Origin: Streptomyces sp. AM 4-1-1
GTDB taxonomy: Bacteria > Actinomycetota > Actinomycetes > Streptomycetales > Streptomycetaceae
Length of the DNA: 64,000 nucleotides
Reading direction: 5' to 3'
Assembly: GCF_029167625.1 (NCBI RefSeq)
Contig: NZ_CP119145.1
Span: 5,952,001 to 6,016,000 of the forward strand
A program made the translations under genes and the position numbers. Below, one piece after another: positions 3,183-44,130 of this stretch (positions within the stretch are counted from its first letter, which is position 1; each line of letters opens with the position of its first letter). The notes under the pieces are model-generated. The model was not told where the DNA came from. It did no database searches and worked only from the letters and a program-made list of their open reading frames with translations.

Positions 3183-3773
3183 TCAGAACTTCACGTCGGA
3201 GCAGGCGTAGAAGGCGTTACCGGTGTCCGCGACCGTCCACACGCCGAGGATCAGGTGCTTGCCGGACTTCTGGGGCAGCGTGCCGGTGTGGGTCACCGTG
3301 TTGCCCGGCAGGCGGCCGCCGAACGGCACGGTCAGGAACGGCTGCGGGTCCAGGTCGGCCCTGGTCAGCGGCTTGGCGGGGTTGTACCCGTCCTTGGTGA
3401 TGTAGTAGCGGAAGTCGGTCGTGGCGTGCCGGGCGGAGATCCGCCAGCTGAAGGTGTAGTTCTGGCCGGCGCTGACGTTGGTGGCGGGCCAGTTCCCGCT
3501 GCGCGGGTCGTCCAGCTCGGAGAAGCGGCCGTTGCCGCCCGCGCAGATGAGGCCGTCGGCGGGGCCCTTGCTGGGGAAGCCCTTGGGGCCCTCGACGCTC
3601 GGGGGCTCCCACTGGATCTGGCCGCAGCCGCGTACGGTGCCGTTGCCGCACAGCTGCTGCCTGCTGATGGGGGAGTCGGTGTAGCCGTGGCCCTGCGCAC
3701 TGCCGGATACGGCCAATACGGAGGCGCCGACCATTCCGAGGCCGAGAAGTGTCGAGGTGATCTTCCTGCGCAT
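3183..3773 (-). CDS. Secreted AA10 lytic polysaccharide monooxygenase
   Basis: 196 residues. A classic signal peptide (MRRK, hydrophobic helix, SAQG) precedes HGYTDSP, so the mature protein begins with the His that forms the copper histidine brace. The rest shows AA10 features: paired cysteines (LCGNGTVRGC), PADGLICAGG, the second brace His in SARHATTDF, and the C-terminal YACSDVKF. It oxidatively cleaves crystalline polysaccharide, most likely chitin, outside the cell. It is single-domain with no carbohydrate-binding module. A DasR-like site lies 68 bp upstream, supporting control by GlcNAc metabolism. Chitin versus cellulose specificity is inferred from the regulatory site, not from sequence alone. 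Confidence 0.95.
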   Translation of the reverse strand: MRRKITSTLLGLGMVGASVLAVSGSAQGHGYTDSPISRQQLCGNGTVRGCGQIQWEPPSVEGPKGFPSKGPADGLICAGGNGRFSELDDPRSGNWPATNVSAGQNYTFSWRISARHATTDFRYYITKDGYNPAKPLTRADLDPQPFLTVPFGGRLPGNTVTHTGTLPQKSGKHLILGVWTVADTGNAFYACSDVKF

Positions 3774-3840
3774 GCTTCGCTCCTGGGGGGTGGGAGTGGG
3801 GGTCGCTGCGGGATGGACGGGGCGTACGCGCTCACCTTGC

Positions 3841-3856
3841 TGCGGTCTAGACCAAC
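3841..3856 (-). promoter_or_regulatory. dre-like DasR operator
   Basis: Reads GTTGGTCTAGACCGCA on the minus strand and contains the palindromic core GGTCTAGACC. DasR sites in chitin and GlcNAc genes have the established consensus ACTGGTCTAGACCACT. It lies 68 bp before the LPMO start codon, where the GntR-family repressor DasR is known to act in chitinase promoters. Confidence 0.8.
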
Positions 3857-4074
3857 TCCGAGATTAGCGGCGCCACTTGGTCATGTCCATACCAGGAATG
3901 GGCTCGGATGTGACCTGGGCCACTGTGTGCGTGTGCGCCCGGGAATGGGGGTTTTCGAACGTCATGCGCACGGTGACGGCCGTCCGGGCGCAGGGACCCC
4001 GCACGGTCCGGGGCGGGACACTGGTTGCGCGGTCCGCGGCGTACTCGCAGGCTGGGGGAGAACAGGGCCGGGGG

Positions 4075-4114
4075 TGACGGCCTCCCCCACGGCAGGGAGT
4101 GGAGGAGGCCGTCA
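4075..4114. terminator. 11-bp stem-loop in the leader of the F420 reductase gene
   Basis: TGACGGCCTCC (4075-4085) pairs exactly with GGAGGCCGTCA (4104-4114) across an 18-nt loop, 43 bp before the next start codon. It could be a leader hairpin or a terminator of an unseen transcript; nothing distinguishes these. Confidence 0.4.
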
Positions 4115-4156
4115 GCGCGTCCATGCCTCACCACGACACCCAGCAGGAGCAGGCGT

Positions 4157-4852
4157 ATGAAGATCGGCATCATCGGCGCCGGAAACATCGGCGGCACCCT
4201 CGCCCGACGGCTGACGGAACTCGGCCATGAGGTCGTGGTCGCCAATTCCAGGGGCCCGCAGACCCTCACCGACCTGGCCGCGGAGACCGGGGCACGGGCG
4301 GTGGCGGCCGAGGACGCTCCGAAGGGGGCGGACCTGGTCGTGGTGACGATTCCCGAGATCAGGGTCCCCGACCTGCCCGCCGGGCTCTTCGACGACGTGT
4401 CCGAGCACCTGATCGTCGTCGACACCGGCAACTACTACCCCCGGCAGCGCGACGGCCGGATCGACGAGATCGAGGAGGGGCTGCCGGAGAGCCGCTGGGC
4501 CGAGAAGCGGTTGCGTCACCCGGTGATCAAGGCGTTCAACAACATCTACGCCCAGCATCTCGGCGACGAAGCCCGTGAGCCCGGAACCCCCGGCCGGATC
4601 GCACTGCCGGTGGCCGGGGACGACGAGCGGGCCAAGGCCGTCGTCATGGAACTGGTGGACGCGCTCGGCTTCGATCCGGTCGACGCGGGGGGCCTCGACG
4701 AGTCGTGGCGGCAGCAGCCGGGGACACCGGTCTACACCACCGATCTGGACGCCGAAGGAGTGCGGCGCGGACTCGCCGAGGCCGGCCGGGACCGTACGGC
4801 GCAGTGGCGGGCCACCCCCGCCAGCCCCGGCACGTTCGACGCGCCCGCCTGA
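4157..4852 (+). CDS. F420-dependent NADP+ oxidoreductase-like protein
   Basis: 231 residues. The N-terminal Rossmann motif GIIGAGNIGGTLARRL and the NSRGP nucleotide-phosphate loop are typical of the NADPH-dependent F420 reductase (Fno-like) family. That family swaps hydride between F420 and NADP. The central FNNIYA segment also fits. Start ATG at 4157 has GGAG about 8 nt upstream; the longer in-frame extension lacks support. It stands alone between the LPMO and the dihydroxyacetone kinase genes. In this genus such proteins may reduce other substrates, so the exact reaction is uncertain. Confidence 0.85.
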   Translation: MKIGIIGAGNIGGTLARRLTELGHEVVVANSRGPQTLTDLAAETGARAVAAEDAPKGADLVVVTIPEIRVPDLPAGLFDDVSEHLIVVDTGNYYPRQRDGRIDEIEEGLPESRWAEKRLRHPVIKAFNNIYAQHLGDEAREPGTPGRIALPVAGDDERAKAVVMELVDALGFDPVDAGGLDESWRQQPGTPVYTTDLDAEGVRRGLAEAGRDRTAQWRATPASPGTFDAPA

Positions 4853-5420
4853 TCCGCGCCGCGCGTCCGCGCCCGGACGGGGGCGGGGACGAGAAGCGGC
4901 CGCACGCGCCGTCGCGGTGCCCGTGCCCGGTGTCCGTACGCGTACCCATGCCCGCGCCGTGTCCGTACGCGTACCCATGCCCGCGCCGTCGTGTGCCCGT
5001 GCCTGTACGCGTGTCCACGGCCGTACGCGTATCCACGCCCGTGCCGTGGCGGGCCCGGGCGGGTGCCACGGCACGGGCGCGTGCCCGTACGTCGTACCCG
5101 TGCGTCCGGCCGTACCGGTGGCCGCTCCGCACCCGTGCCCGTGGCTGTCCTCGTACCGCTCCCGTGCCCGGCCCGCTCGCGCACGGGCCCCGGCACCGCC
5201 CCGGTTCGCGCCTCTTGACCGTCGTCCGCTTCCTCGCCCGGTCGGCCGTCGGCCGAACGGGCGTGTCCCGTGCCGCGTCCCGGTGGCACGGCCGGAAAAC
5301 GCGCGTGGCGCCGGGGTTGAGTTGCCGCCCGTGCCGCTCGCCCCCAGCATGGAGTGACCCGCGCCGCCGGGAAGTCGGTTCGCTCAGCCGCTCGCGGCCT
5401 TGGAGGACGGAGGACCCCGA
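4853..5420. other. 568-bp intergenic region, low-complexity repeats
   Basis: No supportable gene. Long ORFs exist on both strands because the sequence is stop-free, repetitive and extremely GC-rich, but their products are Arg/Pro/Gly- or Thr/Gly/Arg-rich and resemble nothing. Two perfect tandem copies of a 29-bp unit (4931-4959 and 4960-4988), containing CCGTACGCGTACCCATGC, are followed by decaying copies to about 5050. A GGAGGA site at the right end belongs to dhaK. Confidence 0.6.
4931..5050. repeat. 29-bp tandem repeat with degenerate copies
   Basis: Two adjacent identical 29-bp units, then degenerate versions that keep the GTACGCGT core at roughly 30-bp spacing. The TACGCGTA palindromes recur at each unit. 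Function unknown; a variable-number repeat between operons is the simplest reading. Confidence 0.6.
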
Positions 5421-6419
5421 ATGGTCTCGTACTTCGAGAACAGCACCGATGCACTGGTGCCGGACGCCCTGGCCGGTTTCGCCCGTGCCCATGCCGATCT
5501 CGTCACCTACGACACCGGTCACGGCTACTTCACCGCACGGCACACGGCGAAGGCCCGGCGGGTGGCTCTGCTCTCCGGGGGCGGCTCGGGCCACGAACCG
5601 CTGCACGTCGGATTCGTCGGCGCGGGGATGCTCGACGCCGCGTGTCCGGGCCGGGTCTTCGCCTCACCGCACAACCGGCAGGTGTACCAGGCGTCCCTGG
5701 CGGTCGCCCGGTCCGAGGGCGTCCTGCACATCGTGAAGAACTACACCGGCGACCGGATCAACTTCGGCATCGCCGCCGAACGCCTGGCCCACCACGACAT
5801 CCCCTGTGAACGCGTCCTCGTCGACGACGACCTGGCCTCCGACTCGGCGGACATCGCCTCGGGCCGTCGGGGCACGGGCGGCACGGTGCTCATCGAGAAG
5901 ATCCTCGGCGCCGCCGCGGACACCGGCATGGGACTGCGGGAACTGGCCGACCTCGGCGCCGCCCTGGCGGAACGCTGCCGCACCCTGGCCGTCGCATCCG
6001 CCGCCCACACCGCGCCGACCACCGGGAGACCGGCGTTCGAGCTGCCGGCGCACGAGCTGGAGTACGGCGTCGGCATACACGGCGAGCGCGCCGATCACAC
6101 CCGGCGGCACGGGTCCGTCGGGTCGCTGGTCGAGGAGATGACGGACGCGCTGCTGGCGGCGCTCGGCCCCGGGCCGGACGACTCGGTGATCGCGCTGGTC
6201 AACGGACTGGGTTCGGTCACCCCGCTGGAGCTGTACGGGATCTTCGGGGAGCTGGGCCGGGTGCTCGACGCCCGGGGGACCGGACTCGCCCGTTCCCTCA
6301 TCGGCGACTACGTCACGGCCCTGGACATGCGGGGCTTCTCCCTCACCCTGCTCGTGGCCGACGCCCGGGTGCTGGACTTCTACGAGGCGCCCGTCCGCAC
6401 GGCGGCGCTGTGCTGGTGA
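5421..6419 (+). CDS. dhaK: Dihydroxyacetone kinase subunit DhaK
   Basis: 332 residues, close to the usual 330-356. The substrate-binding loop GGGSGHEP is at about 53-60. The His that binds dihydroxyacetone covalently as a hemiaminal is in YGVGIHGE (about H220). DhaK holds the ketose while DhaL delivers phosphate, forming dihydroxyacetone phosphate for glycolysis. ATG at 5421 follows GGAGGA at good spacing. dhaL lies 61 bp downstream on the same strand. Start choice and identity are firm. Confidence 0.95.
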   Translation: MVSYFENSTDALVPDALAGFARAHADLVTYDTGHGYFTARHTAKARRVALLSGGGSGHEPLHVGFVGAGMLDAACPGRVFASPHNRQVYQASLAVARSEGVLHIVKNYTGDRINFGIAAERLAHHDIPCERVLVDDDLASDSADIASGRRGTGGTVLIEKILGAAADTGMGLRELADLGAALAERCRTLAVASAAHTAPTTGRPAFELPAHELEYGVGIHGERADHTRRHGSVGSLVEEMTDALLAALGPGPDDSVIALVNGLGSVTPLELYGIFGELGRVLDARGTGLARSLIGDYVTALDMRGFSLTLLVADARVLDFYEAPVRTAALCW

Positions 6420-6480
6420 CCGGGCGAACGGCGAAGCCCGGGGACCGGGGAACCGGAAAACCGGGGAACAGGAGTAGGAC

Positions 6481-7155
6481 GTGACGACGAACGAGACCTT
6501 CGACGGGGCGTACACGAGTGGCTGGATGCACCGCTTCGCCGACTCGGCGTACGCCACCGAGACCGAACTCACCGCCCTCGACCAACGGGTCGGCGACGGC
6601 GACTTCGGCATCAACCTGAGCGCCGGTGTGCGGGCCGCACTGCGCCTCTTCGACCGGGGCGGCAGTCACGAGAAGGCGTCGGAGCCGCTGGAGACGGTGG
6701 CCACCGCCTTCCTCGACGAGATAGGCGGGACCAGCGGTCCTCTCTTCGGGCTGCTGTTCCAGGCGCTGGGAGCGGCCGTCGCCGCCTCCGGCACCACACT
6801 GACCACCGCCGGCCTCGCCGAGGGTACGGAGGAGGGGCTGGCCGCCATCCGCCGGGTGGGCGAGGCGGCGCCCGGGGACAAGACACTGGTGGACGCGCTG
6901 ACCCCGGCGGCCCGGTCGCTGCGCGCCGAACCGGCGGACAGTCCGCCCGACCGCGCGCTGGCCGCGGCGGCGGACGCGGCGTGGCAGGGAGTGCGGGACA
7001 CGGCCCGGCTGCGGGCGCGGATGGGGCGGGCGAGCTATCTGGGCGACCGGGTGACGGGTGTGCCGGACCCGGGAGCGGTCGGTATCGCCCTGCTCTTCGC
7101 CTCGGCCGGAGGCACCGTCCACAGCCTTGAACCGTATCTGCGCGGCGACGGATGA
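6481..7155 (+). CDS. dhaL: Dihydroxyacetone kinase subunit DhaL
   Basis: 224 residues starting at GTG 6481, preceded by AGGAG. The nucleotide/metal site LDQRVGDGDFGINL (D34, D39, D41) is intact, and the GTSGPLFG loop is present. In PTS-type kinases DhaL carries a bound ADP that is rephosphorylated by DhaM; in ATP-type enzymes DhaK and DhaL are fused. Here K and L are separate, the PTS-type arrangement, yet no dhaM follows: the next gene is convergent. The phosphoryl donor must be encoded elsewhere. Confidence 0.93.
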   Translation: MTTNETFDGAYTSGWMHRFADSAYATETELTALDQRVGDGDFGINLSAGVRAALRLFDRGGSHEKASEPLETVATAFLDEIGGTSGPLFGLLFQALGAAVAASGTTLTTAGLAEGTEEGLAAIRRVGEAAPGDKTLVDALTPAARSLRAEPADSPPDRALAAAADAAWQGVRDTARLRARMGRASYLGDRVTGVPDPGAVGIALLFASAGGTVHSLEPYLRGDG

Positions 7156-7295
7156 CACGTCGACAGGTGACGTGACGAGGTGTCGTGACGCCAGGTGAGG
7201 CGGCGACGGACGGCGTGGCGACGGATCACGTGGCGCCGGGTGGCGCCGGGCCGTCGTCGAGAGCGCCGAACCGGAGCCCGGTGCGTGACCCGGGA

Positions 7296-7342
7296 CCCGG
7301 TGCGCGCCGCTCCCGGCCACCACGGGAGCGGCACGCACCGGG
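7296..7342. terminator. 20-bp stem terminator between dhaL and the HAD gene
   Basis: CCCGGTGCGCGCCGCTCCCG (7296-7315) pairs with 7323-7342 at 19 of 20 positions around a 7-nt loop. It lies between convergent genes and just past the HAD stop, so it probably serves both directions. Confidence 0.75.
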
Positions 7343-7346
7343 CGTC

Positions 7347-8048
7347 TCATCGGCCGGCGGGCCGTGCCTCCGCGGTGACCCGGGAGCGGGCCCAGGCCAG
7401 CAGCTCCGGATCACCCAGGGTGCTGACCCAGAGGTCGGCCTGGTCGGCGCCCTGCCCGGCCGGGCGCGGGCCCACGCCCAGCACCCGTAGTCCGGCCCGG
7501 CGGGCCGAGTCGATGCCGGTCAGGGAGTCCTCGACCGCCATCGCCGTCTCGGGAGCCACCCCGCAGAGACGGGCCGCGGTCGCGTAGACGTCCGGTTCGG
7601 GCTTCGGCCGCACTCCGTCGCCCGGGACGACGACATGGGCGAAGTGGCTGAGCAGCCCGGCCCGCGAGAGGCTGGACTCCACCACCTCCAGCGGGCAGTT
7701 GCTGGCGACGGCGAGTGGCAGATGGCCGGCCGCGATCCGCACCAGGGCCGCCGCGCCCGGCATGGTGGCGGGGAATTCGGCGACGAGCGCCGTGAAGTGC
7801 TTGAGGAGCGAGTGGATCATGTCGTCGGCGAGTTCCGGTTTCCCGGTCTCCTCGGCCATGAGCGTTCCGCATTCGGTGTAGTGCACGCCCTTCGCGCGCT
7901 CGGCGAATCCGGGTGCGGGCTTGAGCCCGAATTCGTGGAAGACCCTGTTGCGGGCGTCCTGCCAGTGCCGTTCGGTGTCCATCAGAGTGCCGTCGCAGTC
8001 GAAGACGATGGCTGCCGGGGACCAGGAAAGAATGCGATGAGCTGTCAT
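7347..8048 (-). CDS. HAD-superfamily phosphatase
   Basis: About 233 residues. HAD motif I is FDCDGTLMDTE (nucleophile Asp and general acid Asp), motif II is in AVASNC, and motif III/IV is KPEPD with VEDSLTGIDSARRAG. The alpha-helical cap between motifs I and II marks the beta-PGM/phosphoglycolate phosphatase class. It likely dephosphorylates a sugar phosphate or small phosphoester; which one is not evident. ATG at 8048 is preceded by GGCAGGGA, a weak and close ribosome site. An in-frame start at 8129 would add 27 unconserved residues. Faces dhaL. Confidence 0.85.
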   Translation of the reverse strand: MTAHRILSWSPAAIVFDCDGTLMDTERHWQDARNRVFHEFGLKPAPGFAERAKGVHYTECGTLMAEETGKPELADDMIHSLLKHFTALVAEFPATMPGAAALVRIAAGHLPLAVASNCPLEVVESSLSRAGLLSHFAHVVVPGDGVRPKPEPDVYATAARLCGVAPETAMAVEDSLTGIDSARRAGLRVLGVGPRPAGQGADQADLWVSTLGDPELLAWARSRVTAEARPAGR

Positions 8049-8630
8049 TTCCCTGCCGTTCTCGGAGAGTGCGCCGGCCCCGCGCAATCGGCGGGCGCCG
8101 TGAGGAGTCGGACCGCGGAGTGGGCTCACCCGGCAGACGCGGGTGGGGGTTCCGAGCGGTCGTCGGTGACCGGGCGCGGAGGCGGACGTATCGGCCTCCA
8201 GGGGCCCTCCATGACGGAAACGCTCAGGCTTCCTTCGGTTGGCCCCGAAACATCGTGTTGACTACGTTAATTTCGCGCCGGAGAGTGACGCAATCACTAC
8301 TTCGAGTGTTTGACGGGCGGCCCGTGGCGCAGTACGCGCGAGACGAGGCGGGCGGTCCCGGCCGGTCGGCCGAGTGAGCGGCGCCCGGCAACTTCGTTGC
8401 GAAGCAGCCGAATTGGCGCGGGCCGGGCCATGATCGCCGTAGGGGAACGCCGTGTTCGAAAACGGCCAGAAGTGAAGCGGGAACGTCCTCGATGTCACCC
8501 CCGCGTGTGCACGGGCGAAGAATAATAATAATCTCCACGCACAATCAGCGATGTGCCGCGTCGGTGGTACGCGGGCGCACTAGATTTCTGCACCGGAATA
8601 ATGGAGCTGTTGAGCGGAGGCGGAACGGGC
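8049..8630. other. 582-bp divergent intergenic region
   Basis: Lies between the minus-strand HAD gene and the plus-strand TetR gene, so it should hold both promoters. It is less GC-rich than its surroundings, with a TTGACTACGTTAATTTCG patch near 8255 and an (AAT)-type run near 8520. No convincing gene: the ORFs seen are short and cysteine/proline-rich. I see no perfect autoregulatory element for the regulator. Confidence 0.5.
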
Positions 8631-9278
8631 GTGCAGGACAGGGCGCGGGTGACCCGAAGGTCGTTATTGGAAGCCGCAGCACATCTCTTCGCCGAACAGG
8701 GGTACGCAGGAACGAGCATCAATGACATAAGCGCGCTGTCGGGACGGACCAGCGGGGCGATCTACTTCCACTACTCCAGCAAGGAGAAGCTCGCACTCGC
8801 CGTCGTGCGGGAGCAGTTCGCCGCCTGGCCGCAGCTGGCCGCGCGGTACCGGGCCGCCGACGTGCCACCGCTGGAGCGGCTGGTCGCGCTGAGCTTCGAG
8901 ATCGCCAGGGCCCTGCGGGAGGAGCCCATCGCACGCGCGGGGGCGCGGCTGTGGACGGAGCGCCGCACCATCGACGCGGTGGTGCCCGCGCCGTTCGCGG
9001 TCTGGACCGGGGCCGCCACCCGGCTCCTCGCGCAGGCCCGTACCGAGGGGGAACTGGCGGCGGGGGTCGAGCCGTCGGCCACGGCCGGGACCCTGGTCTG
9101 CGCCTTCTTCGGGCTGTACACCCTCACGGAGGAACTCGTCGGACAGCAAGGGCTGCTGGACCGGCTGCACGAGTGGTGGCTGCTGGTCCTCAACGCGTTG
9201 CAGGCCCGGCCGGACGCGGCCGCGCTGCTGGCGCGCGCCCGCAAGCACGAGTGCGAGCCCGTGGGCGCCCTGCCCTGA
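8631..9278 (+). CDS. TetR regulator, gamma-butyrolactone receptor-like
   Basis: 215 residues from GTG 8631, with GGAGG 10 nt upstream. The N-terminal HTH (TRRSLLEAAAHLFAEQGYAG, then TSGAIYFHYSSKEKLALAVV) and the ligand domain (ARAGARL, FAVW with the conserved Trp, ALTEELVGQQ-like helix) resemble ScbR/ArpA receptors. Those are repressors that leave DNA on binding gamma-butyrolactones. Codon 12 (8664-8666) is TTA, so translation should depend on the bldA tRNA, linking it to late growth. No AfsA-type synthase is adjacent. It could be a pseudo-receptor binding another signal. Confidence 0.85.
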   Translation: MQDRARVTRRSLLEAAAHLFAEQGYAGTSINDISALSGRTSGAIYFHYSSKEKLALAVVREQFAAWPQLAARYRAADVPPLERLVALSFEIARALREEPIARAGARLWTERRTIDAVVPAPFAVWTGAATRLLAQARTEGELAAGVEPSATAGTLVCAFFGLYTLTEELVGQQGLLDRLHEWWLLVLNALQARPDAAALLARARKHECEPVGALP

Positions 9279-9297
9279 GCGCCCGCGGGCCCCTGTC

Positions 9298-10146
9298 TCA
9301 GCCGACGCAGCCCGGTACCGAAGGAGTGCTGCCGACACAGTTGGTGGGAGCGTTGCCGCTGATCGGTGACGAGGTGAGGGTCATGACGCCGTTCGAGCGG
9401 TGGACACCACCGGCCAGGACGGCGCGGTTGGCGCTGACCGGGGTGCTGGTGAGGGTGGTCGCGGTCGAGTCGACCGCGGCGATGCCGCCGCCCTGGGCTC
9501 CCGAGGTGTTTCCCCGGACGGCGCTGCTGGTGGTGGTCAGGGAGCCCCGCGAGCCGTTGCGGATGCCGCCGCCCTGGCCGGTGGCGGTGTTGTCGGAGAC
9601 GGTGCTGTTCGTGAACGTCGCCACCGCGCCCTTGGCCGGAGCCGCGATGTCCGCGTTGGCGAGGGCGCCGCCCCTGCCGAGCGCGGTGTTGCCGGTCAGT
9701 GTGCCGGCCGTGAGCGTGACGGCCCCGTGGTTGAGGATGCCCCCGCCGTCCGTGGCGGCCCTGCCGTTGCGCAGGGTGACGTTCCCTTTGAGGGTGAGGT
9801 CGCCGCCGGGGGCGACCTTGGCGATGCGGAAGGCCGGCGTGCCGGGCGCGGTCGAACGGATGATGGTATCCGTGTCCCCGGTCAGGGTGATCGCGGTGGT
9901 GATGATCGGGAGCGCGTTCGGGCCGTCCGCGTCGCTGCTGTGGGGCACGCTCATGGTGTACGTGCAGTCGGCCGCCAGGACGACATTGCCCCCGCCCGCC
10001 GCGTTGGCGGCGTCGACCGCGGTGATGAGCGCCGTTTCGTCGCACGCCACGGCCGCTTGCGCGGAGACCGGGTTCAGGGCGGACAGGGCGGTCGCGATCA
10101 GTACGGTGGCCCCCGCCGCGGCCGGGAGCGTGCGGAATCCGCGCAT
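9298..10146 (-). CDS. Secreted right-handed beta-helix repeat protein
   Basis: 282 residues with a signal peptide ending near AQAAVA. Repeating segments GGGILNHG, GGALANAD, GGGIRNGS, GGGIAAVD, each followed by Thr/Ser/Asn-rich stretches (LTGNTALG, VSDNTATG, VRGNTSG), mark a pectate-lyase-like parallel beta-helix (PbH1/polymorphic outer-membrane-type repeat). Two Cys near the C-terminus could form a disulfide. No catalytic residues are recognisable, so a surface or adhesive role is as likely as an enzyme. The start is 1 bp from the stop of an upstream 52-codon ORF, implying translational coupling. It converges on the TetR gene with a 19-bp gap. Confidence 0.75.
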   Translation of the reverse strand: MRGFRTLPAAAGATVLIATALSALNPVSAQAAVACDETALITAVDAANAAGGGNVVLAADCTYTMSVPHSSDADGPNALPIITTAITLTGDTDTIIRSTAPGTPAFRIAKVAPGGDLTLKGNVTLRNGRAATDGGGILNHGAVTLTAGTLTGNTALGRGGALANADIAAPAKGAVATFTNSTVSDNTATGQGGGIRNGSRGSLTTTSSAVRGNTSGAQGGGIAAVDSTATTLTSTPVSANRAVLAGGVHRSNGVMTLTSSPISGNAPTNCVGSTPSVPGCVG

Positions 10147-10147
10147 C

Positions 10148-10306
10148 TCAGGCCCCCGCGCAGGGGGTGACGGAGGTTCGGGTGCCGGTCGCGGCCGCGC
10201 CGGTCGCCGCCGTTCTCGCGTCGGCGTCGGCCCGCGCCGAGGCGGTCGCGCCGACCGGATGGGCGCCGGCGGTGGGGGAGGTGGTCGTGACGCTGTGACG
10301 TTTCAT
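10148..10306 (-). CDS. Candidate small ORF (52 aa) upstream of the beta-helix gene
   Basis: ATG at 10306 has AGGGG 6 nt upstream. The stop (10148-10150) is separated by 1 bp from the beta-helix start, so the pair looks like a coupled dicistron. The peptide (MKRHSVTTTS... SVTPCAGA) is Ala/Thr-rich with a single Cys four residues from the end and no membrane helix. I do not recognise it. It may be a leader peptide that sets translation of the secreted protein, or a small product; it may also be fortuitous. Confidence 0.4.
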   Translation of the reverse strand: MKRHSVTTTSPTAGAHPVGATASARADADARTAATGAAATGTRTSVTPCAGA

Positions 10307-10999
10307 GAGGACCCCTGTGAGGTGGTGAGGGAGGCGAACCCACGGGATCGATCCGGCGCGGCCGGCCGCACCATGGGCAGCGCATCGGATGTGCACGGGT
10401 GTGACCCGGAACGGCTCACACCCGGAGCGAAACACGCCGTGTTCGCCGTGTCCTCCCGGCGGTCGGCCCCGGCGGGGACCGTAACCACCGCTCGGTCGGG
10501 TGAAGAGCCTGCTCAGAGGCCCCGGAACGGACGGGTGACGTGTCGTTCGGCCGTCCCCCGTCCGGCCGTGCCCGCTGCCCGCCGGATGCCCGGACGCACC
10601 GCGTGCGGCGCTCCTCCGGGGCCCTGCCGATCCGCCTGCCCCGGGCCGGCCGGGCGGCACCCCAGGGAGCCCGGACGGCGGGCCGGGAGTGGCGACTCGG
10701 GGCGTTCCGCCTGCTTCGTACCCCTGACGAGCGAGCAGAAGATGACCGGAAAGTGCCCTGGTCATACGCAACGCGACTATACGATTTCAATGCGTCATCA
10801 GATGCGTCGGCGGCCTGCACAAAACGCGAGGTGAAAGCTTGTCAGGGGACCAACGGGCCGGGGCGGCGCGGCCTCGAACCCCTGGCGACCGCACTCACTC
10901 CTCAGCGCCGCCGCGCCCCCCGGTGAGTCGCCGCTCGGCTCGCCCCGGCGGCGTCTTTCAGCCAATCCGAAGCCTATACAGCCGATACAAAGGTTCTTC
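10307..10999. other. 693-bp intergenic region before conservon 1
   Basis: Holds the divergent promoters for the minus-strand beta-helix dicistron and plus-strand conservon 1. An AT-richer patch at about 10735-10830 (CGACTATACGATTTCAATGCG) is the likeliest promoter zone. The short ORFs here have no recognisable products. AAAGG at about 10988 is the ribosome site of cvnA. Confidence 0.5.
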
Positions 11000-12667
11000 A
11001 TGGCCCGTTCTTCCGCGTCCGTCTCCCCCTCTCGCCGGACGCAGTACCTCTGGCCGGCGGTACTGACCCTCGCGTTCCTCACCTTCGCGGCGCCGGTGGT
11101 GCTCCTCGCGGCCGACCGTCCCCTCGTCGCCTCGGTGTACGCCGTGGTCGCCCTGGCGGTGCTCGCCCTCCTGACCGCACTGCGCCGGCGGCACAGACGC
11201 GCCGACTCCGAGGCCGCCCGTCTGCTGACGGACGTCCGGGAACGCGGCGAGGAGCTGATGCGCCGGGACGCCGACTGGCGTCGCCACACGCAACAGGGCG
11301 CCGCCCTCATGAGGGCGGAGGTCGGGCACGTCGTCCAGGAGCGGCTGCCCGCCGCGCTCGCCGGGCGGCAGGACCCGGGCGCCCGGCACGGCGCGGACCG
11401 GCTGGACGAGGCCACGGCCGGACTCCTCGACCGGCTGCTGACCGAGGTGCGCGACGCGGTCGAGCACCGCGAGGAGTCCCAGCGGCTGGCGCTGGTGGAA
11501 CTGGCCAGCCGGGTGCAGACATCGGCCCACCGCATCCAGGCCAGCGTCACGGGGATCTCGGACCGGTATCCGGGAGACGCCGAACTGCTGGAGTCCACCA
11601 TGCGGGTGGACCACGCGGCCACCCAGCAGGCACGGCACGCGCAGAGCCTCAAGGTGCTCTGCGGCGAATGGCCCGGACAGCAGTGGCAGAAGCCGCTGGC
11701 GCTGGTCGACGCGGTACGGGCCGCGTCGGGACGGATCGTCGCGTTCACCCGTGTCGAGGTCTCGGGCGACCCGGACATCGGGATCGCCGCGCCGGTCGTC
11801 GAGCCGCTGATCCACCTGATGGCGGAACTCCTCGCCAACGCGACCGAGTACTCCCCGCCGAGCACCGCCGTCCCGGTCACCGTGCGGACCGTGCAGCGCG
11901 GCGCCGTCATCGAGGTGGACGACGGCGGCCTGGGGCTCGACGAGTACCGGCTCGCCGAGGCCCGCGAGGTGGTCTCGGGCCGCCGTCTCCTGGGCGTCGG
12001 TGACGTCGGTGAGATCCCGCAGACCGGGTTCGCGGTCGTGGGCCGCTTCGCCGACCGGCACGGCTTCCACGTCGACCTCGGCCCGTCCCCGTACGGCGGC
12101 GTACGCGCGGTGGTGCTCATCCCGACGGACGTGCTGGAGGCCATCGCCCCGGCGGGCACGCCCGCCGCGCACACCGCCGAGCCGCCGCTCGCCCGGCGTG
12201 CGACGGCGACGGGTCCGTCCGTACCCGAACAGTCCACCGGCAGCCGGGCGCCCGAGCCCGCTCCGGCCCACCCGAACCCCTCCGCCACGAGCGGCAGTGA
12301 CGTTACGTCAGGGGTGGGCGCCGGTGCTCCACCGTCCGACGGGGCCGCGCCCACCGGCGTCACCGGCCCCACGGACCCCTCCGGGGCCGGGACGGCACCC
12401 GCTCCCGGCCAGGCCCGTCACGCCGCCCGGAACCCGGCGCCGACCGGCCGCCTCCCGCAGCGGCGTTCACGGCGCGACGCGTACCTGCCGACCGCCGAAC
12501 CGGCCCCCGCCGCCTCGGCGCCCCCGGTGACACCCGAGGAGGCCGGCGACTGGATGGAGCAGTTCTTCGAGGGCGGCCGTTCCGTGCCCGACCCCCGTCC
12601 CGGCCCGCACCAGGGCCAGGGCGGATCAACCCCCCCAACCCCCGATTCCGCAGAAGGACAGGCGTGA
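11000..12667 (+). CDS. Conservon 1 CvnA: kinase-like membrane sensor
   Basis: 555 residues. Two membrane helices (about 18-38 and 43-61) with a very short exterior loop are followed by a coiled-coil region and a DH-type box (VDHAATQQAR, H205). The HATPase domain has N-box AELLANATEYSPP (about 275-287), G1 VDDGGLGLDE and G2 PQTGFAVVGRF. The C-terminal 170 residues are Pro/Ala-rich and probably disordered. CvnA proteins resemble histidine kinases and work with CvnB, C and D as a membrane-associated complex. There is no large sensor domain, so input probably comes through the membrane or partners. First gene of a six-gene operon; its TGA overlaps the cvnB start (GTGA). Confidence 0.93.
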   Translation: MARSSASVSPSRRTQYLWPAVLTLAFLTFAAPVVLLAADRPLVASVYAVVALAVLALLTALRRRHRRADSEAARLLTDVRERGEELMRRDADWRRHTQQGAALMRAEVGHVVQERLPAALAGRQDPGARHGADRLDEATAGLLDRLLTEVRDAVEHREESQRLALVELASRVQTSAHRIQASVTGISDRYPGDAELLESTMRVDHAATQQARHAQSLKVLCGEWPGQQWQKPLALVDAVRAASGRIVAFTRVEVSGDPDIGIAAPVVEPLIHLMAELLANATEYSPPSTAVPVTVRTVQRGAVIEVDDGGLGLDEYRLAEAREVVSGRRLLGVGDVGEIPQTGFAVVGRFADRHGFHVDLGPSPYGGVRAVVLIPTDVLEAIAPAGTPAAHTAEPPLARRATATGPSVPEQSTGSRAPEPAPAHPNPSATSGSDVTSGVGAGAPPSDGAAPTGVTGPTDPSGAGTAPAPGQARHAARNPAPTGRLPQRRSRRDAYLPTAEPAPAASAPPVTPEEAGDWMEQFFEGGRSVPDPRPGPHQGQGGSTPPTPDSAEGQA

Positions 12668-13080
12668 GCATGAGTTACGTGGAGAACCCCGAGCAGCGAG
12701 GCTGGATGATCTCGGAGGTCGCCGCGGTACCCGGTGTGCGGCAGGCGATCGTCTTCAGCGCCGACGGTCTGCTGCTGGTCAGTTCGGAGGGCATGGACCG
12801 GGACTCCGCCGACCGGCTGTCGGCGAACTGCTCGGGCCTCCAGTCCCTGGGACGCAGCCTGGGCCGGGAGTTCGGCGAGGACGGCGGCGCGGTCAACCAG
12901 CAGATGGTCGAGTTCAACGGCGGCTTCCTCTTCATGCGCAGCGCCGACAACGTCCATCTGGCGGTGGTGACAGGACCGGTGGTGGACCCGAAGCTGGTGG
13001 CCCGGCAGATGCAGGCACAGGTGATGAAGATCGGGGCGGCCAACCTCAGCAGCCCGCCGAGGCCCGGGTCCGTTCGTTGA
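12664..13080 (+). CDS. Conservon 1 CvnB: roadblock/LC7 protein
   Basis: 138 residues with the roadblock/LC7 fold: VPGVRQAIVFSADGLLLVSSEG, the SANCSGLQSLG helix, and the GGFLFMRSADNVHLAVVT strand. This family binds Ras-like GTPases and may regulate CvnD nucleotide exchange or hydrolysis. GTG 12664 overlaps the cvnA stop and has AAGGA 5-6 nt upstream; ATG 12670 is an alternative. Overlaps cvnC by a TTGA junction, so tight coupling is expected. Confidence 0.93.
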   Translation: MSMSYVENPEQRGWMISEVAAVPGVRQAIVFSADGLLLVSSEGMDRDSADRLSANCSGLQSLGRSLGREFGEDGGAVNQQMVEFNGGFLFMRSADNVHLAVVTGPVVDPKLVARQMQAQVMKIGAANLSSPPRPGSVR

Positions 13081-13442
13081 GCACCCCGGAGGGAGCGTAC
13101 GAGGACCGGGCGTTACGCCCGTACGTGATCAGCAAGGGGCGCTCCCGTCCCTCTCGTAACACCATCGGTGTCGAGACACTCCTCATCGCCGTCGACCCTC
13201 CGCGTGACCTGCCCGTCTCCGCCACCAGGGAGGAGATCGCCCTGATGCGGATGTGCCGGCGGCTGCTCTCCCTGGTGGAGGCGGCCGCCCACCTCGGGCT
13301 CCCGGTGAGTCTGGTGAAGGTCCTGGTGTCCGACCTCGTCGACAGCGGTCATCTGTCGGCGCGGTCGGGCGTACCGCAGGCCGTCCTGCCCGACCGACAA
13401 CTGCTTCAGGAGGTACTGGATGGTCTCCGCAGACTCCGCTGA
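13077..13442 (+). CDS. Conservon 1 CvnC: DUF742 protein
   Basis: 121 residues. The conserved RPYVISKGR opening, the ETLLIAVDPP strand and a winged-helix-like segment (RRLLSLVEAAAHLGLPVSLVKVLVSDL) identify DUF742. Start TTG 13077 overlaps the cvnB stop; no other start precedes the conserved RPY segment. Codon 13 (13113-13115) is TTA, making this one gene of the operon dependent on the bldA leucyl-tRNA. Because translation is coupled, polarity on cvnD and the P450s is possible. Confidence 0.92.
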   Translation: MSTPEGAYEDRALRPYVISKGRSRPSRNTIGVETLLIAVDPPRDLPVSATREEIALMRMCRRLLSLVEAAAHLGLPVSLVKVLVSDLVDSGHLSARSGVPQAVLPDRQLLQEVLDGLRRLR

Positions 13443-14028
13443 CCGTTACTTGGCCAACACGGTGCAGCAGGCGGTCAAGATCCTCGTCGTGGGCGCGTTC
13501 GGCGTCGGCAAGACGACGCTGGTCGGTTCCGTCAGCGAGATCGAGCCGTTGCGGACCGAGGAGGTGATGACCCAGGCGAGCGTCGGAGTGGACGACCTGG
13601 CCGGCATGAGCACCAAGTCCACCACCACCGTGGCGATGGACTTCGGACGGATCACCGTCAACTCCCGGATGGTCCTCTACCTCTTCGGCACCCCGGGACA
13701 GCGCCGCTTCTGGGATCTGTGGGAGGGCCTGGCCGAAGGCGCGATAGGCGTGCTCGTCCTCGTGGACACCCGGCGTCTGGAGGACAGCTTCGACGTCCTG
13801 GAACAACTGGAGATCCGCGGGCTCCCGTTCGCCATCGCGGTCAACCAGTTCCCCGACAGCGAGTACTACGGCATCGAGGAGCTGCGCGGGGCCCTCGACC
13901 TGCTGCCGGAGACCCCCGTGGTGATGTGCGACGCCCGGGAGCGCACGTCGTCGCTGGACGCCCTGATCAGCCTCGTCCAATACGTGATGAGCTCCCGCGC
14001 ATCGCGCGTACCGGAGAACGCCTCATGA
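13420..14028 (+). CDS. Conservon 1 CvnD: Ras-like GTPase
   Basis: 202 residues. P-loop GAFGVGKTTLV, switch I region with TQASVGVDD and STTTVAMDFGRI, G3 GTPGQRRFWDLW, and G4-like AVNQFPDS (N-Q in place of NKxD). The GTPase is thought to be the output switch of the conservon. It starts 23 bp inside cvnC and ends in an ATGA overlap with the P450 gene, so the P450 is translated in step with it. Confidence 0.93.
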   Translation: MVSADSADRYLANTVQQAVKILVVGAFGVGKTTLVGSVSEIEPLRTEEVMTQASVGVDDLAGMSTKSTTTVAMDFGRITVNSRMVLYLFGTPGQRRFWDLWEGLAEGAIGVLVLVDTRRLEDSFDVLEQLEIRGLPFAIAVNQFPDSEYYGIEELRGALDLLPETPVVMCDARERTSSLDALISLVQYVMSSRASRVPENAS

Positions 14029-41471: not shown

Positions 41472-41721
41472 CGCGGAGCCAGCGACGCCGAGAACCATGG
41501 CGCGCGTGGACCGGCGGCACGAAGGGCCGGAGCACGAAGGGCCGGAGCACGAAGGGCCGGGGCACGAAAGGACCGGGGCACGAAAGGACCGGGGCATGCG
41601 AGGACCGGGCAGGCGGCGCGAAGCGGTGAACCCCGGGCAGGGACCCTGTCGCCGGGGCCTGTCTCCCGGAGATGGTGAAAATGCCTGGTGAGAAGGGAGT
41701 TGTTCGGACGATACTCGGCGG
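41472..41721. other. 250-bp intergenic region with minisatellite
   Basis: Contains the 15/16-bp tandem repeat (41517-41609) and, at its right end, GATACT (41710-41715) six nt before the Hen1 start, a possible leaderless -10. No gene is supported; the stop-free frames only reflect the repeat. Confidence 0.5.
41517..41609. repeat. 15/16-bp tandem repeat, six copies
   Basis: Three units GCACGAAGGGCCGGA/G (15 bp), then three of GCACGAAAGGACCGGG type (16 bp, the last being GCATGCGAGGACCGGG). Mixed unit length means no reading frame is kept, which argues against coding. Likely variable between strains. Confidence 0.85.
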
Positions 41722-42531
41722 GTGTTCCTGACGATCAGTACGACCGGCACCCCGGAGCGTCCCGCCACCGATCTCGGCCGTCTGCTGCACAAGCACCCCG
41801 AGAAGGCGCAGAGGTTCTCCACGTCCCACGGCACCGCGCACGTCTTCTATCCCGAGGCGTCGGCCGAGCACTGCACGGCGGCGCTGCTGCTGGAGGTGGA
41901 CCCCGAGGCGCTGGTGCGGCGCGGCAAGGGCAAGGGGCGGGGCGGCGCACCCGACGCGGTGCTCGCGCGGTACGTCAACGACCGCCCGTACGCTTCCTCC
42001 TCGTTGCTGTCCGGCGCGGTGTCCACGGTCTTCAGGTCCGCGCTGAACGGCGTCTGCCACGCGTTGCCCGAGCGGGCGCGCTCGCCCATCCCGCTGCGCA
42101 TCGAGGTGCCCGCCCTGTCGGCACGCGGCGGCGCCGAGCTGGTGCGGAAGCTGTTCGGGCCGCTCGGCTGGACGAGGGTGGACGCCGAGCGCGTACGGCT
42201 CGACGAGCGGTTCCCCGAGTGGGGCGACTCGCGTTGCGTACGGCTCGTGCTGGAGGGCGAGGTGCGGCTCGCGGACGCGGTGCGGCAGCTGTACGTCCTT
42301 CTGCCGGTGCTCGACGACGCCAAGCACTACTGGGTGGCGCCCGACGAGGTGGACAAACTCCTCCGGGCCGGTGAGGACCGGCTGGCCGAGCACCCCGAGC
42401 TGAAGCTGATCACCAGCCGCTGTGGGTCCCGGGCGCCGGGGGCCGACCCGGGAGGCGGTGCGGCGGCTCGAACTGGCGCGGCTCGCATGACCCCGGAGAA
42501 CGACCGGAAGAAGGAGGCGAGGGCCGCGTGA
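41722..42531 (+). CDS. Hen1-like protein, N-terminal domain only
   Basis: 269 residues. Residues 1-232 match the N-terminal ligase-activating domain of bacterial Hen1 (VFLTISTTG, PATDLGRLLHKHPEKAQ, ARYVNDRPYASSSLLSGAVSTVF, LARSPIPLRIEVPALSARGG, VLDDAKHYWV, LAEHPELKLI). Full Hen1 continues with a Mn-dependent 2'-O-methyltransferase of about 230 residues. Here the similarity stops at the domain boundary and a 37-residue Gly/Ala/Arg tail follows. No methyltransferase remnant exists downstream: the next gene begins in a GTGA overlap. In known systems this domain alone activates the Pnkp ligase, yet the Pnkp here has no ligase. The truncation is clean, without a frameshift. Confidence 0.88.
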   Translation: MFLTISTTGTPERPATDLGRLLHKHPEKAQRFSTSHGTAHVFYPEASAEHCTAALLLEVDPEALVRRGKGKGRGGAPDAVLARYVNDRPYASSSLLSGAVSTVFRSALNGVCHALPERARSPIPLRIEVPALSARGGAELVRKLFGPLGWTRVDAERVRLDERFPEWGDSRCVRLVLEGEVRLADAVRQLYVLLPVLDDAKHYWVAPDEVDKLLRAGEDRLAEHPELKLITSRCGSRAPGADPGGGAAARTGAARMTPENDRKKEARAA

Positions 42532-43973
42532 GCAGCACCGACAACGACACGAACACCCAGCACGGCGACACCGGCGTCGGTGCCGACAACGCCGGTGCCG
42601 ACGGCGTCCGTGAAGACGGCATCGGCGACGACCGCGTCGGTGACGGTGCGGACGGCCGCCGCGCGCGCACGCTCCCGGTGACCGACCTCTCCCTCGTCGT
42701 CCTGATCGGGGCCAGCGGTTCCGGCAAGTCCACCTTCGCCCGGCGCCACTTCAAGCCCACCGAGATCATCTCCTCGGACTTCTGCCGGGGCCTGGTCGCC
42801 GACGACGAGAACGACCGGAGCGCCGACCGCGACGCCTTCGACGTCCTTCACCACATCGCGGGCAAGCGGCTCGCCGCCGGACGGCTGACCGTCGTCGACG
42901 CCACCAACGTCCAGACCGAGAGCCGCAAGCAGCTGGTGCGGCTGGCCCGTGAGCACGACGTGCTGCCCATCGCCATCGTCCTCGACCTGCCCGAAGAGGT
43001 CTGCGCGGCGCGCAACGCGGCCCGCCCCGACCGGGCCGACATACCGCGCCACGTCATCCAGCGCCACCGCGGGGAACTGCGCCGCTCGCTGCGCGGGCTG
43101 GAACGCGAGGGCTTCGGCAAGGTGCACGTTCTCCGCGGCGAGGAGGAGGCGGACACGGCCGAAGTGGTGCTGGAACGCCGCTACAACGATCTGCGGCACC
43201 TCACCGGCCCCTTCGACATCATCGGCGACATCCATGGGTGCGCCTCCGAGCTGGAGACCCTGCTCGGCGCGCTCGGATATGCGGACGGGGCACACCCCGA
43301 GGGGCGTACGGCCGTCTTCGTCGGCGACCTCGTCGACCGCGGCCCCGACAGCCCCGCCGTGCTGCGCCGCGTGATGGGCATGGTCTCGGCGGGGAACGCA
43401 CTGTGCGTCGCCGGCAACCACGAGCACAAGCTCGGCAGGTACCTCAAGGGCCGCAAGGTCCAGCCCACTCACGGACTCGCCGAGACCATCGAGCAGCTGG
43501 AGCGCGTGGACGCCGAGGACCCGACGTTCCGGGAGCGGGTGCGGGAGTTCATCGATGGGCTCGTCAGCCACTACGTCCTGGACGGCGGCAGGCTGGTCGT
43601 CTGCCACGCCGGACTGCCCGAGAAGTACCACGGACGCACCTCGGGGCGGGTCCGTGCGCACGCGCTGTACGGGAAGACGACCGGCGAGACCGACGAGTTC
43701 GGGCTGCCCGTCCGCCACCCGTGGGCCGAGGAGTACCGGGGCCGGGCCACCGTCGTCCACGGCCACACCCCCGTGCCCAGCACCTCCTGGGTCAACAACA
43801 CCATCTGTCTGGACACCGGAGCGGTCTTCGGCGGCCGGATGACCGCGCTGCGCTGGCCGGAACGCGAACTGGTCGACGTACCGGCCGAGCGGGTCTGGTG
43901 CGAGCCGGTCCGGCCCCTGCGGACGGAGGCGCCCGGCGGCCGGGAGGACCGCCCGCTCGACCCCCGCCTCTGA
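42528..43973 (+). CDS. Pnkp-like polynucleotide kinase-phosphatase lacking the ligase domain
   Basis: 481 residues against about 850 in full bacterial Pnkp. A 50-residue acidic N-extension precedes the kinase (P-loop GASGSGKST 61-69, SSDFCRGLV, VVDATNV) and the metallophosphatase (DIHG 234-237, GDLVDRG 266-272, GNHEH 296-300, H360, HGH 411-413). The usual C-terminal adenylyltransferase/ligase (a further 370 residues) is absent; the protein ends soon after ALRWPERELV, followed by a terminator. It should heal RNA ends (5'-phosphorylation, removal of 3' or 2',3'-cyclic phosphate) without sealing. GTG 42528 overlaps the hen1 stop and has AAGGAGG upstream. Confidence 0.9.
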   Translation: MSSTDNDTNTQHGDTGVGADNAGADGVREDGIGDDRVGDGADGRRARTLPVTDLSLVVLIGASGSGKSTFARRHFKPTEIISSDFCRGLVADDENDRSADRDAFDVLHHIAGKRLAAGRLTVVDATNVQTESRKQLVRLAREHDVLPIAIVLDLPEEVCAARNAARPDRADIPRHVIQRHRGELRRSLRGLEREGFGKVHVLRGEEEADTAEVVLERRYNDLRHLTGPFDIIGDIHGCASELETLLGALGYADGAHPEGRTAVFVGDLVDRGPDSPAVLRRVMGMVSAGNALCVAGNHEHKLGRYLKGRKVQPTHGLAETIEQLERVDAEDPTFRERVREFIDGLVSHYVLDGGRLVVCHAGLPEKYHGRTSGRVRAHALYGKTTGETDEFGLPVRHPWAEEYRGRATVVHGHTPVPSTSWVNNTICLDTGAVFGGRMTALRWPERELVDVPAERVWCEPVRPLRTEAPGGREDRPLDPRL

Positions 43974-44032
43974 GATTCCCGCCGCTGACGGCCCCCACCT
44001 CTGATCGGCTCTCGCCTTCGATCGGCTCTCAC

Positions 44033-44075
44033 CGCGTACGGCCGTCGCGCACCCTGTCCGCGACGGCCGTACGCG
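44033..44075 (+). terminator. 17-bp perfect hairpin after the pnkp gene
   Basis: CGCGTACGGCCGTCGCG and its reverse complement flank a 9-nt loop (44050-44058), 60 bp past the pnkp stop and 55 bp before arcA. It separates the RNA-repair cassette from arginine catabolism. Confidence 0.75.
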
Positions 44076-44130
44076 GAATCCGAGGGTGTCCCGCCGGGTG
44101 AAGGGCGCTTCCCGAGGTGAGGATGGGGGC

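Follow-up and report, generated by a model that had tools for sequence, protein, structure and literature searches.

A Pnkp-Hen1 operon of Streptomyces sp. AM 4-1-1 without its ligase and methyltransferase domains, possibly reduced to RNA end-healing

In the window analysed here, a 64,000-nt stretch of Streptomyces sp. AM 4-1-1 (genome label: G000), both genes of the Pnkp-Hen1 operon have been shortened: Hen1 retains its N-terminal domain (Hen1-N) without the methyltransferase, and Pnkp retains its kinase and phosphatase without the ligase. Pnkp is usually read as a repair machine, in which healing is meaningful only in combination with sealing. The reading preferred for the window is a Pnkp that only heals RNA ends, located beside a vestigial Hen1-N, and it is given a probability of about 0.5. 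With one genome at hand, decay of the whole operon is almost as likely.

The operon has lost its sealing and marking modules through two separate internal deletions. In the proposed mechanism, the remaining Pnkp would act as an end-healing enzyme: the kinase would phosphorylate 5'-OH ends and the phosphatase would remove 2',3'-cyclic or 3'-phosphates. Lacking a ligase, the healed fragments with their 5'-phosphate and 3'-OH would not be rejoined and would become ordinary substrates of degradation and recycling. A system that once repaired RNA cut by ribotoxins may thereby have come to dispose of it. Hen1-N, as the activator of the missing ligase, would be a vestige that is losing constraint.

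Anatomy of the two remnants

The Hen1 gene (ORF 41722-42531, forward strand) encodes 269 amino acids. Residues 1-233 (41722-42420) form the ligase-activating domain Hen1_L (PF12623, E 8.1e-97), of which the homologue 4dqz has been solved; there is no other Pfam match. The TIGR04074 match covers model positions 2-223 of 462 and scores 310.8 bits (cut-off: 340), and neither the Pfam nor the TIGR04074 profile searches detect a methyltransferase domain in this ORF, as the preliminary description had reported. The domain is followed by a linker remnant (42421-42486). An alignment of the DNA with six relatives reveals one extra base in this linker at about 42430-42433, which takes residues ~237-255 off the ancestral frame. 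In the shifted frame the linker runs to RLELARLA and then straight to MTPENDRKKEARAA and the stop codon (42487-42531). Only these last 14 residues match the ancestral C-terminal tail. The methyltransferase was removed by an internal deletion of ~0.7 kb (deletion point: ~42486/42487), while the ancestral 3' end is retained.

The Pnkp gene (42528-43973, forward strand) has been cut down to 481 amino acids. Its TIGR04075 match starts at model position 3, ends at 429-430 of 851 and scores 719.8 bits (cut-off: 750). The 5'-OH polynucleotide kinase domain (42672-43178, PF13671) contains the P-loop GASGSGKST and aligns to the solved structure 4gp6, and the metallophosphoesterase 2',3'-phosphatase domain (43179-43931, PF00149) aligns to 4j6o; we take 4gp6, 4j6o and 4dqz to be Clostridium thermocellum structures. 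Judged by eye, the P-loop and the metallophosphoesterase motifs are intact. No ligase (nucleotidyltransferase) domain is matched in this ORF, and the frame stops where the ligase should begin. A Pnkp consisting of kinase and phosphatase, as described earlier, is thus confirmed. The ligase was removed by an in-frame deletion of ~1.25 kb (~417 codons in comparison to locus L063), whose junction lies at 43957-43963 and whose edges both carry TCGACC in three of the six aligned relatives. The ancestral end is retained here as well: the window protein ends in GGREDRPLD followed by PRL-stop, and the relatives read GGREGRPLDLADVQ up to a distant SEPVDPRL-stop. Both losses had been called clean and free of frameshifts. 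This is correct for Pnkp but wrong for the Hen1 tail, because of the one-base insertion in the linker.

Two other features of the preliminary description are real. The GTGA overlap between the genes corresponds to ATGA in all six aligned relatives, and the strong hairpin between Pnkp and the arginine deiminase gene (44032-44076, forward strand) consists of an 18-bp perfect inverted repeat (44032-44049/44059-44076). The 155-nt intergenic stretch that contains it has a folding z-score of -4.43, with 0 of 200 shuffles as stable; the hairpin is a possible terminator, though without a U run. Upstream of the operon (41677-41716, forward strand), conservation is confined to two promoter-like elements, GAAAATGCCTGGT (GAAAAT-N-CCTGGT, 41677-41689) and ATACTC (41711-41716), which the window has in common with most of the 18 relatives included in the comparison. 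We infer that they act as the operon promoter. Their position just 5' of the GTG start would be consistent with a leaderless transcript.

Possibly these two elements form a site at which a specific sigma factor, or else a regulator, acts on the RNA repair operon. Further upstream of Hen1, imperfect short direct repeats of ~18 bp can be spotted by eye at 41530-41610.

The operon is preceded by a gene for homocysteine S-methyltransferase and followed by those for arginine deiminase and ornithine carbamoyltransferase, and the same trio adjoins it in most of the fetched relatives. The relatives sample comprises 100 fetched loci, with some species represented twice. The Hen1 frame is long in all but two of them (98 of 100; exceptions: L159 and L160). 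A Pnkp match was obtained at 99 loci, and 96 of these have a long Pnkp (exceptions: L077, due to a frameshift, and L078 and L081, at contig ends). Given these full-length relatives, the short pair of the window is more than chance. The Hen1 of L160 (genome G153) is otherwise full-length and is interrupted by a single in-frame TAG.

A sequencing or assembly artefact could also explain a pattern seen in a single genome. A near-identical strain, whose protein P0241 differs from the neighbouring 320-aa methyltransferase by two residues, not counting the start residue, gave no short Hen1 or Pnkp among the matches listed; the length limits of these searches exclude full-length Hen1 and most full-length Pnkp, and the listing does not cover pseudogenes. 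Among the 120 matches listed per search, there was no short Hen1 above 84% and no short Pnkp above 89% identity, which counts against the healing reading. An artefact would, however, have to account for two separate deletions in an assembly of 2 contigs (7.47 Mb) that is 99.99% complete. The LLM, HMT, ADI and OTC stretches used have open frames, and at least 90% of their length can be aligned with relatives. It is the least probable of the explanations weighed here, although the one-base insertion in Hen1, taken alone, could be a sequencing error.

Missing parts and known systems

The pair in the window is a descendant of Pnkp-Hen1 (TIGR04075/TIGR04074) at the syntenic locus, with the same gene order, overlap and promoter-like elements. 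It likewise possesses the kinase, the phosphatase and the Hen1 ligase-activating domain, in which conserved residues are altered. It differs in the absence of the ligase and the methyltransferase, and it scores below both curated family cut-offs. With these two domains missing, the known route to sealing and 2'-O-methylation is closed to the pair.

Searches of the genome with the Pnkp and Hen1 models and with PF09414 yielded neither a second Pnkp ligase nor a PF09414 ligase. For the Hen1 methyltransferase only weak matches were found (best listed E: 2.3e-7), compared to 4e-85 to 2e-91 for the true Hen1 methyltransferase halves listed in the same search. On the basis of these searches, a stand-alone ligase or methyltransferase was rejected as a candidate.

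It had also been proposed that a ligase encoded elsewhere takes over. In this case another ligase would seal the healed ends, with Hen1-N retained as its activator. The genome does encode RtcB, which joins 2',3'-cyclic-phosphate to 5'-OH ends. However, RtcB is found in each of 32 genomes of the genus that were tested, with intact and with altered Pnkp alike, and was rejected as compensation for the lost sealing on this ground; moreover, the ends it acts on are destroyed by healing. No other Pnkp or PF09414 ligase is at hand, though a very divergent one could be missed, and Hen1-N, the presumed activator, is the most altered part of the operon. The proposal of a ligase elsewhere is therefore very unlikely and finds no backing in these searches.

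A second RtcB is present in genomes G278, G334 and G035, i.e. in three of six genomes with an eroded operon (G000, G124, G157, G278, G334 and G035; G000 itself is negative) vs none of 26 others (p 0.004, in a post hoc contrast on a small sample). The second RtcB is a candidate replacement for the lost sealing.

Healing without a built-in ligase occurs outside the Pnkp-Hen1 family as well. T4 Pnkp and stand-alone healing enzymes such as HD-Pnk work in this way, and their phosphatases are of types different from the metallophosphoesterase of Pnkp. The window Pnkp would work like these enzymes but does not belong to the same family. Another parallel in organization is the Pnkp1-Rnl-Hen1 complex, where the ligase is encoded by a separate gene and Hen1 methylates (PMC4411300); as in the window, the kinase-phosphatase protein is separate from the ligase. 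The same paper assigns the phosphatase domains of Pnkp-Hen1 and Pnkp1-Rnl-Hen1 to completely different superfamilies (PMC4411300): the phosphatase of Pnkp1-Rnl-Hen1 is of the T4 type, and that of the window protein is a PF00149 metallophosphoesterase instead. A separate Rnl ligase, of which the genome shows no sign in the form of a PF09414 or Pnkp-ligase match, could escape such searches, as Rnl is given there as ~20% identical to the Pnkp ligase (PMC4411300). In the literature covered (titles and abstract openings, with most subscription journals outside the coverage), no kinase-phosphatase-only Pnkp in Streptomyces is described.

Rates of change and erosion of the operon

A 34-taxon tree places the window on a long branch outside a clade of close relatives, and the protein change on this branch was scaled to the change at third codon positions. 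Hen1-N changed 2.66x and the phosphatase 2.41x as much as expected, compared to 1.06x for the kinase. The four flanking genes pooled give 0.90x (LLM: 0.76, HMT: 0.88, ADI: 1.69, OTC: 0.57). Private replacements at otherwise invariant columns number 9/134 in Hen1-N, 6/177 in the phosphatase and 2/92 in the kinase, vs 1/183, 1/102, 1/294 and 0/169 in the flanking genes. Altogether, 17 of 403 invariant positions are altered in the operon and 3 of 748 in the flanking genes (p 5e-6); the kinase does not differ significantly from the rest of the operon (2/92 v 15/311, p 0.38). Residues shared with the solved homologues are struck by six of the nine replacements in Hen1-N (4dqz; among them W220R, G219D, Y172C and V98G) and by four of the six in the phosphatase (4j6o: P295A, Y397H, Y411H and Y458C). 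The constraint on Hen1-N and, in part, on the phosphatase has dropped. In Hen1-N, acceleration at conserved sites is what an idle domain would be predicted to show, and the known job of Hen1-N is the activation of the Pnkp ligase.

For a Pnkp that only heals, these rates cut both ways. The ordinary rate of the kinase, the intact motifs and the retention of promoter elements and overlap favor it, as does the fact that most changes per site fall in Hen1-N. The acceleration of the phosphatase and the alteration of its 4j6o-shared residues weaken it.

The same figures lend themselves to another explanation, namely that both genes are pseudogenes of recent origin, in which nothing has been selected since the loss of ligase and methyltransferase and the frames are open for lack of time. 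Its chances are judged to be somewhat short of even. The excess of altered invariant positions, the ten of 15 Hen1-N and phosphatase replacements that hit residues shared with 4dqz and 4j6o, and the insertion already there in Hen1 all speak in its favor. The open frames are weak evidence of function, since simulations of neutral drift at 2-6% replacement leave no stop in 26-67% of the runs. Against a pseudogene pair stand the kinase, which is not accelerated (though its difference from the rest is not significant), the recognisable catalytic motifs, the promoter elements and a normal GC3.

Decay of this operon is not restricted to the window. Among 392 genus genomes, Hen1-N matches in 354 (E up to 1e-20) and the Pnkp model in 367 (E up to 1e-12), of which 351 are above the cut-off; a few of the 367 (G061, G102 and G368) contain kinase-like fragments only. 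The 41 genomes without a Pnkp match above the cut-off, G000 included, add to the case for decay, with some of them being contig ends. Operon architecture was established for listed or fetched loci, where erosion recurs in G124, G157, G278, G334, G353, G316 and G377, which likewise supports a pseudogene pair. In G157 (L184, 2033-3124), one large deletion has fused Hen1 1-126 in frame to Pnkp 618-857, so that the first 126 residues of Hen1 precede the last 240 of Pnkp, with the frame continuing beyond the ancestral end. G278 and G124 retain fragments only, G334 is without part of the kinase, G316 retains Pnkp 313-857, and G377 retains 83-524 with its end inverted. In G413 and G155 the operon is split by inserted DNA. 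Where a truncation coincided with a contig end or lay close to one (L078, L081, G074 and G336), it was not counted as real, and the tally leaves out G186, G288, G305, G126, G001 and G398.

Two candidates were rejected. L087 appeared as a sealing-dead case (18 private changes in the ligase and seven in the methyltransferase), which proved to be an artefact of an N run and a disturbed end. G247 appeared eroded, but its genome is 88% complete and its scattered frame changes are probably sequence errors. Two further loci stand apart: in L188 (G179, 3362-13572), ~10 kb of other DNA separates a full-length Hen1 from a full-length Pnkp, and in L187 the Pnkp is full-length although its genome, G109, is not listed among those matching Hen1-N, i.e. 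a ligase without its known activator.

Since the parts lost vary from one eroded copy to the next, the window can be explained without invoking a match between the losses of the two partners. The argument of the preliminary description that a matched truncation speaks against random decay is accordingly weak, given the recurrent non-matching deletions, the in-frame junction of G157 and the acceleration of Hen1-N. The pattern it had set against its own proposal, full-length genes in relatives and a deletion with decaying sequence, is borne out by half.

Kinase-phosphatase forms in other Streptomyces

Nearly all fetched loci are full length, but the survey of other Streptomyces suggested earlier did bring up two comparable reductions, in G242 and G035. 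As in the window, sealing has been lost or the nucleophile is gone, and the kinase-phosphatase is retained. G242 encodes a kinase-phosphatase of ~440 amino acids (432 from the aligned start), which ends at the phosphatase/ligase boundary, has the same neighbours on either side and displays motifs that are intact by eye. In contrast to the window, there is no Hen1 match in its 12-kb locus, and G242 is absent from the genomes listed with a Hen1-N match. G035 has a Hen1-N of 222 amino acids without methyltransferase and a full-length Pnkp with a degenerating ligase domain. Its ligase motif I reads CEAMHGGSR, vs CEEKHMGSR in the four relatives compared. The nucleophile lysine, which we take to be the lysine of CEEKHMGSR, is thus gone. 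Its short Hen1 is not common to its other listed matched relatives, since their open Hen1 frames are at least 508 codons long. G242 and G035 are sisters with 100% support in the kinase-phosphatase tree, are drawn as sisters in that of arginine deiminase and form a lineage separate from that of the window.

The count of changes in G035 was restricted to columns with a conservation of at least 98.5% across 94 references (L087 included; L159, L160, L077, L078, L081 and short entries excluded). They affect 11/175 columns in the phosphatase, 14/88 in the kinase and 62/202 in the ligase; in Hen1-N, 24/116 are changed, plus 11 gaps. The ligase differs from both the phosphatase (p 7e-10) and the kinase (p 0.009), and change is heavier in the kinase than in the phosphatase (p 0.024), opposite to the window. 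Between G242 and G035, dN/dS is 0.32 (0.21-0.48) for the kinase, where eight other pairs computed are all lower (0.12-0.26), and 0.25 (0.16-0.37) for the phosphatase, at the upper end of the 0.11-0.26 in these pairs. With values well under 1, the kinase-phosphatase of this clade is under purifying selection. It appears from these sequences that healing-only forms of Pnkp exist and can last. This parallel favors the healing reading of the window and counts against a pseudogene pair, but its weight is reduced as the evidence comes from another lineage, as the kinase/phosphatase pattern of G035 is reversed and as a third kinase-phosphatase-only locus, G353 (no Hen1 match), is broken at about residue 353. 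As the latter illustrates, a kinase-phosphatase-only locus can be an intermediate on the way to loss.

The phosphatase changes of the window also overlap with those of G242. Six positions at which 36 references show no variation are altered in the window, and three of them are also altered in G242 (12/168, p 0.005), with identical replacements at P295A and S377A. When one reference exception is allowed, four of eight are shared (18/184, p 0.0036), and Y411H is among them. In 77 further homologues, 295 is Pro and 411 is Tyr throughout, and 377 is Ser in 74. The overlap would fit, without proving, a relaxed ligase-facing surface rather than a general collapse, and it favors a Pnkp kept for healing. 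It was, however, tested post hoc as one of several comparisons; the overlap with G035 is 2/6 (p 0.051; 3/8, p 0.016, with one exception allowed), the kinase positions altered in the window overlap with those of G242 or G035 not above chance, and position 295 is a Thr in G038, whose Pnkp is full. These points weaken it again.

A positive new role for the pair would require a different relation between the proteins: Hen1-N and the kinase-phosphatase would form a new complex, for instance in defence or RNA 3'-end control. Both genes are indeed open and overlapping behind conserved promoter-like elements. Such a complex is nevertheless very unlikely, as replacements including W220R, G219D, Y172C and V98G fall at 4dqz-shared sites of Hen1-N, the kinase-phosphatase of G242 persists at a locus devoid of Hen1, and the neighbours identified by profile matches are metabolic genes.

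Healing without sealing, which had been raised earlier, hence stays the best-supported functional reading, with support mainly from G242 and G035 and not from the matched losses. More tentatively, and at a little under even odds, Streptomyces may have converted Pnkp-Hen1 into a healing-only module more than once. The window would then represent an early, G035 a middle and G242 an end stage of one route, on which sealing and methylation are given up, Hen1-N fades and the kinase-phosphatase is selected to clear 5'-OH and 2',3'-cyclic-phosphate ends for turnover. If a healing half is selected without ligase and methyltransferase, end-cleaning would be valuable on its own, e.g. in the recycling of ribotoxin-cut RNA. 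The window, G035 and G242 would offer a natural series for the role of the conserved phosphatase residues once the ligase is gone. Should the window simply be decaying, it would document how readily the genus dismantles its Pnkp-Hen1 operon.
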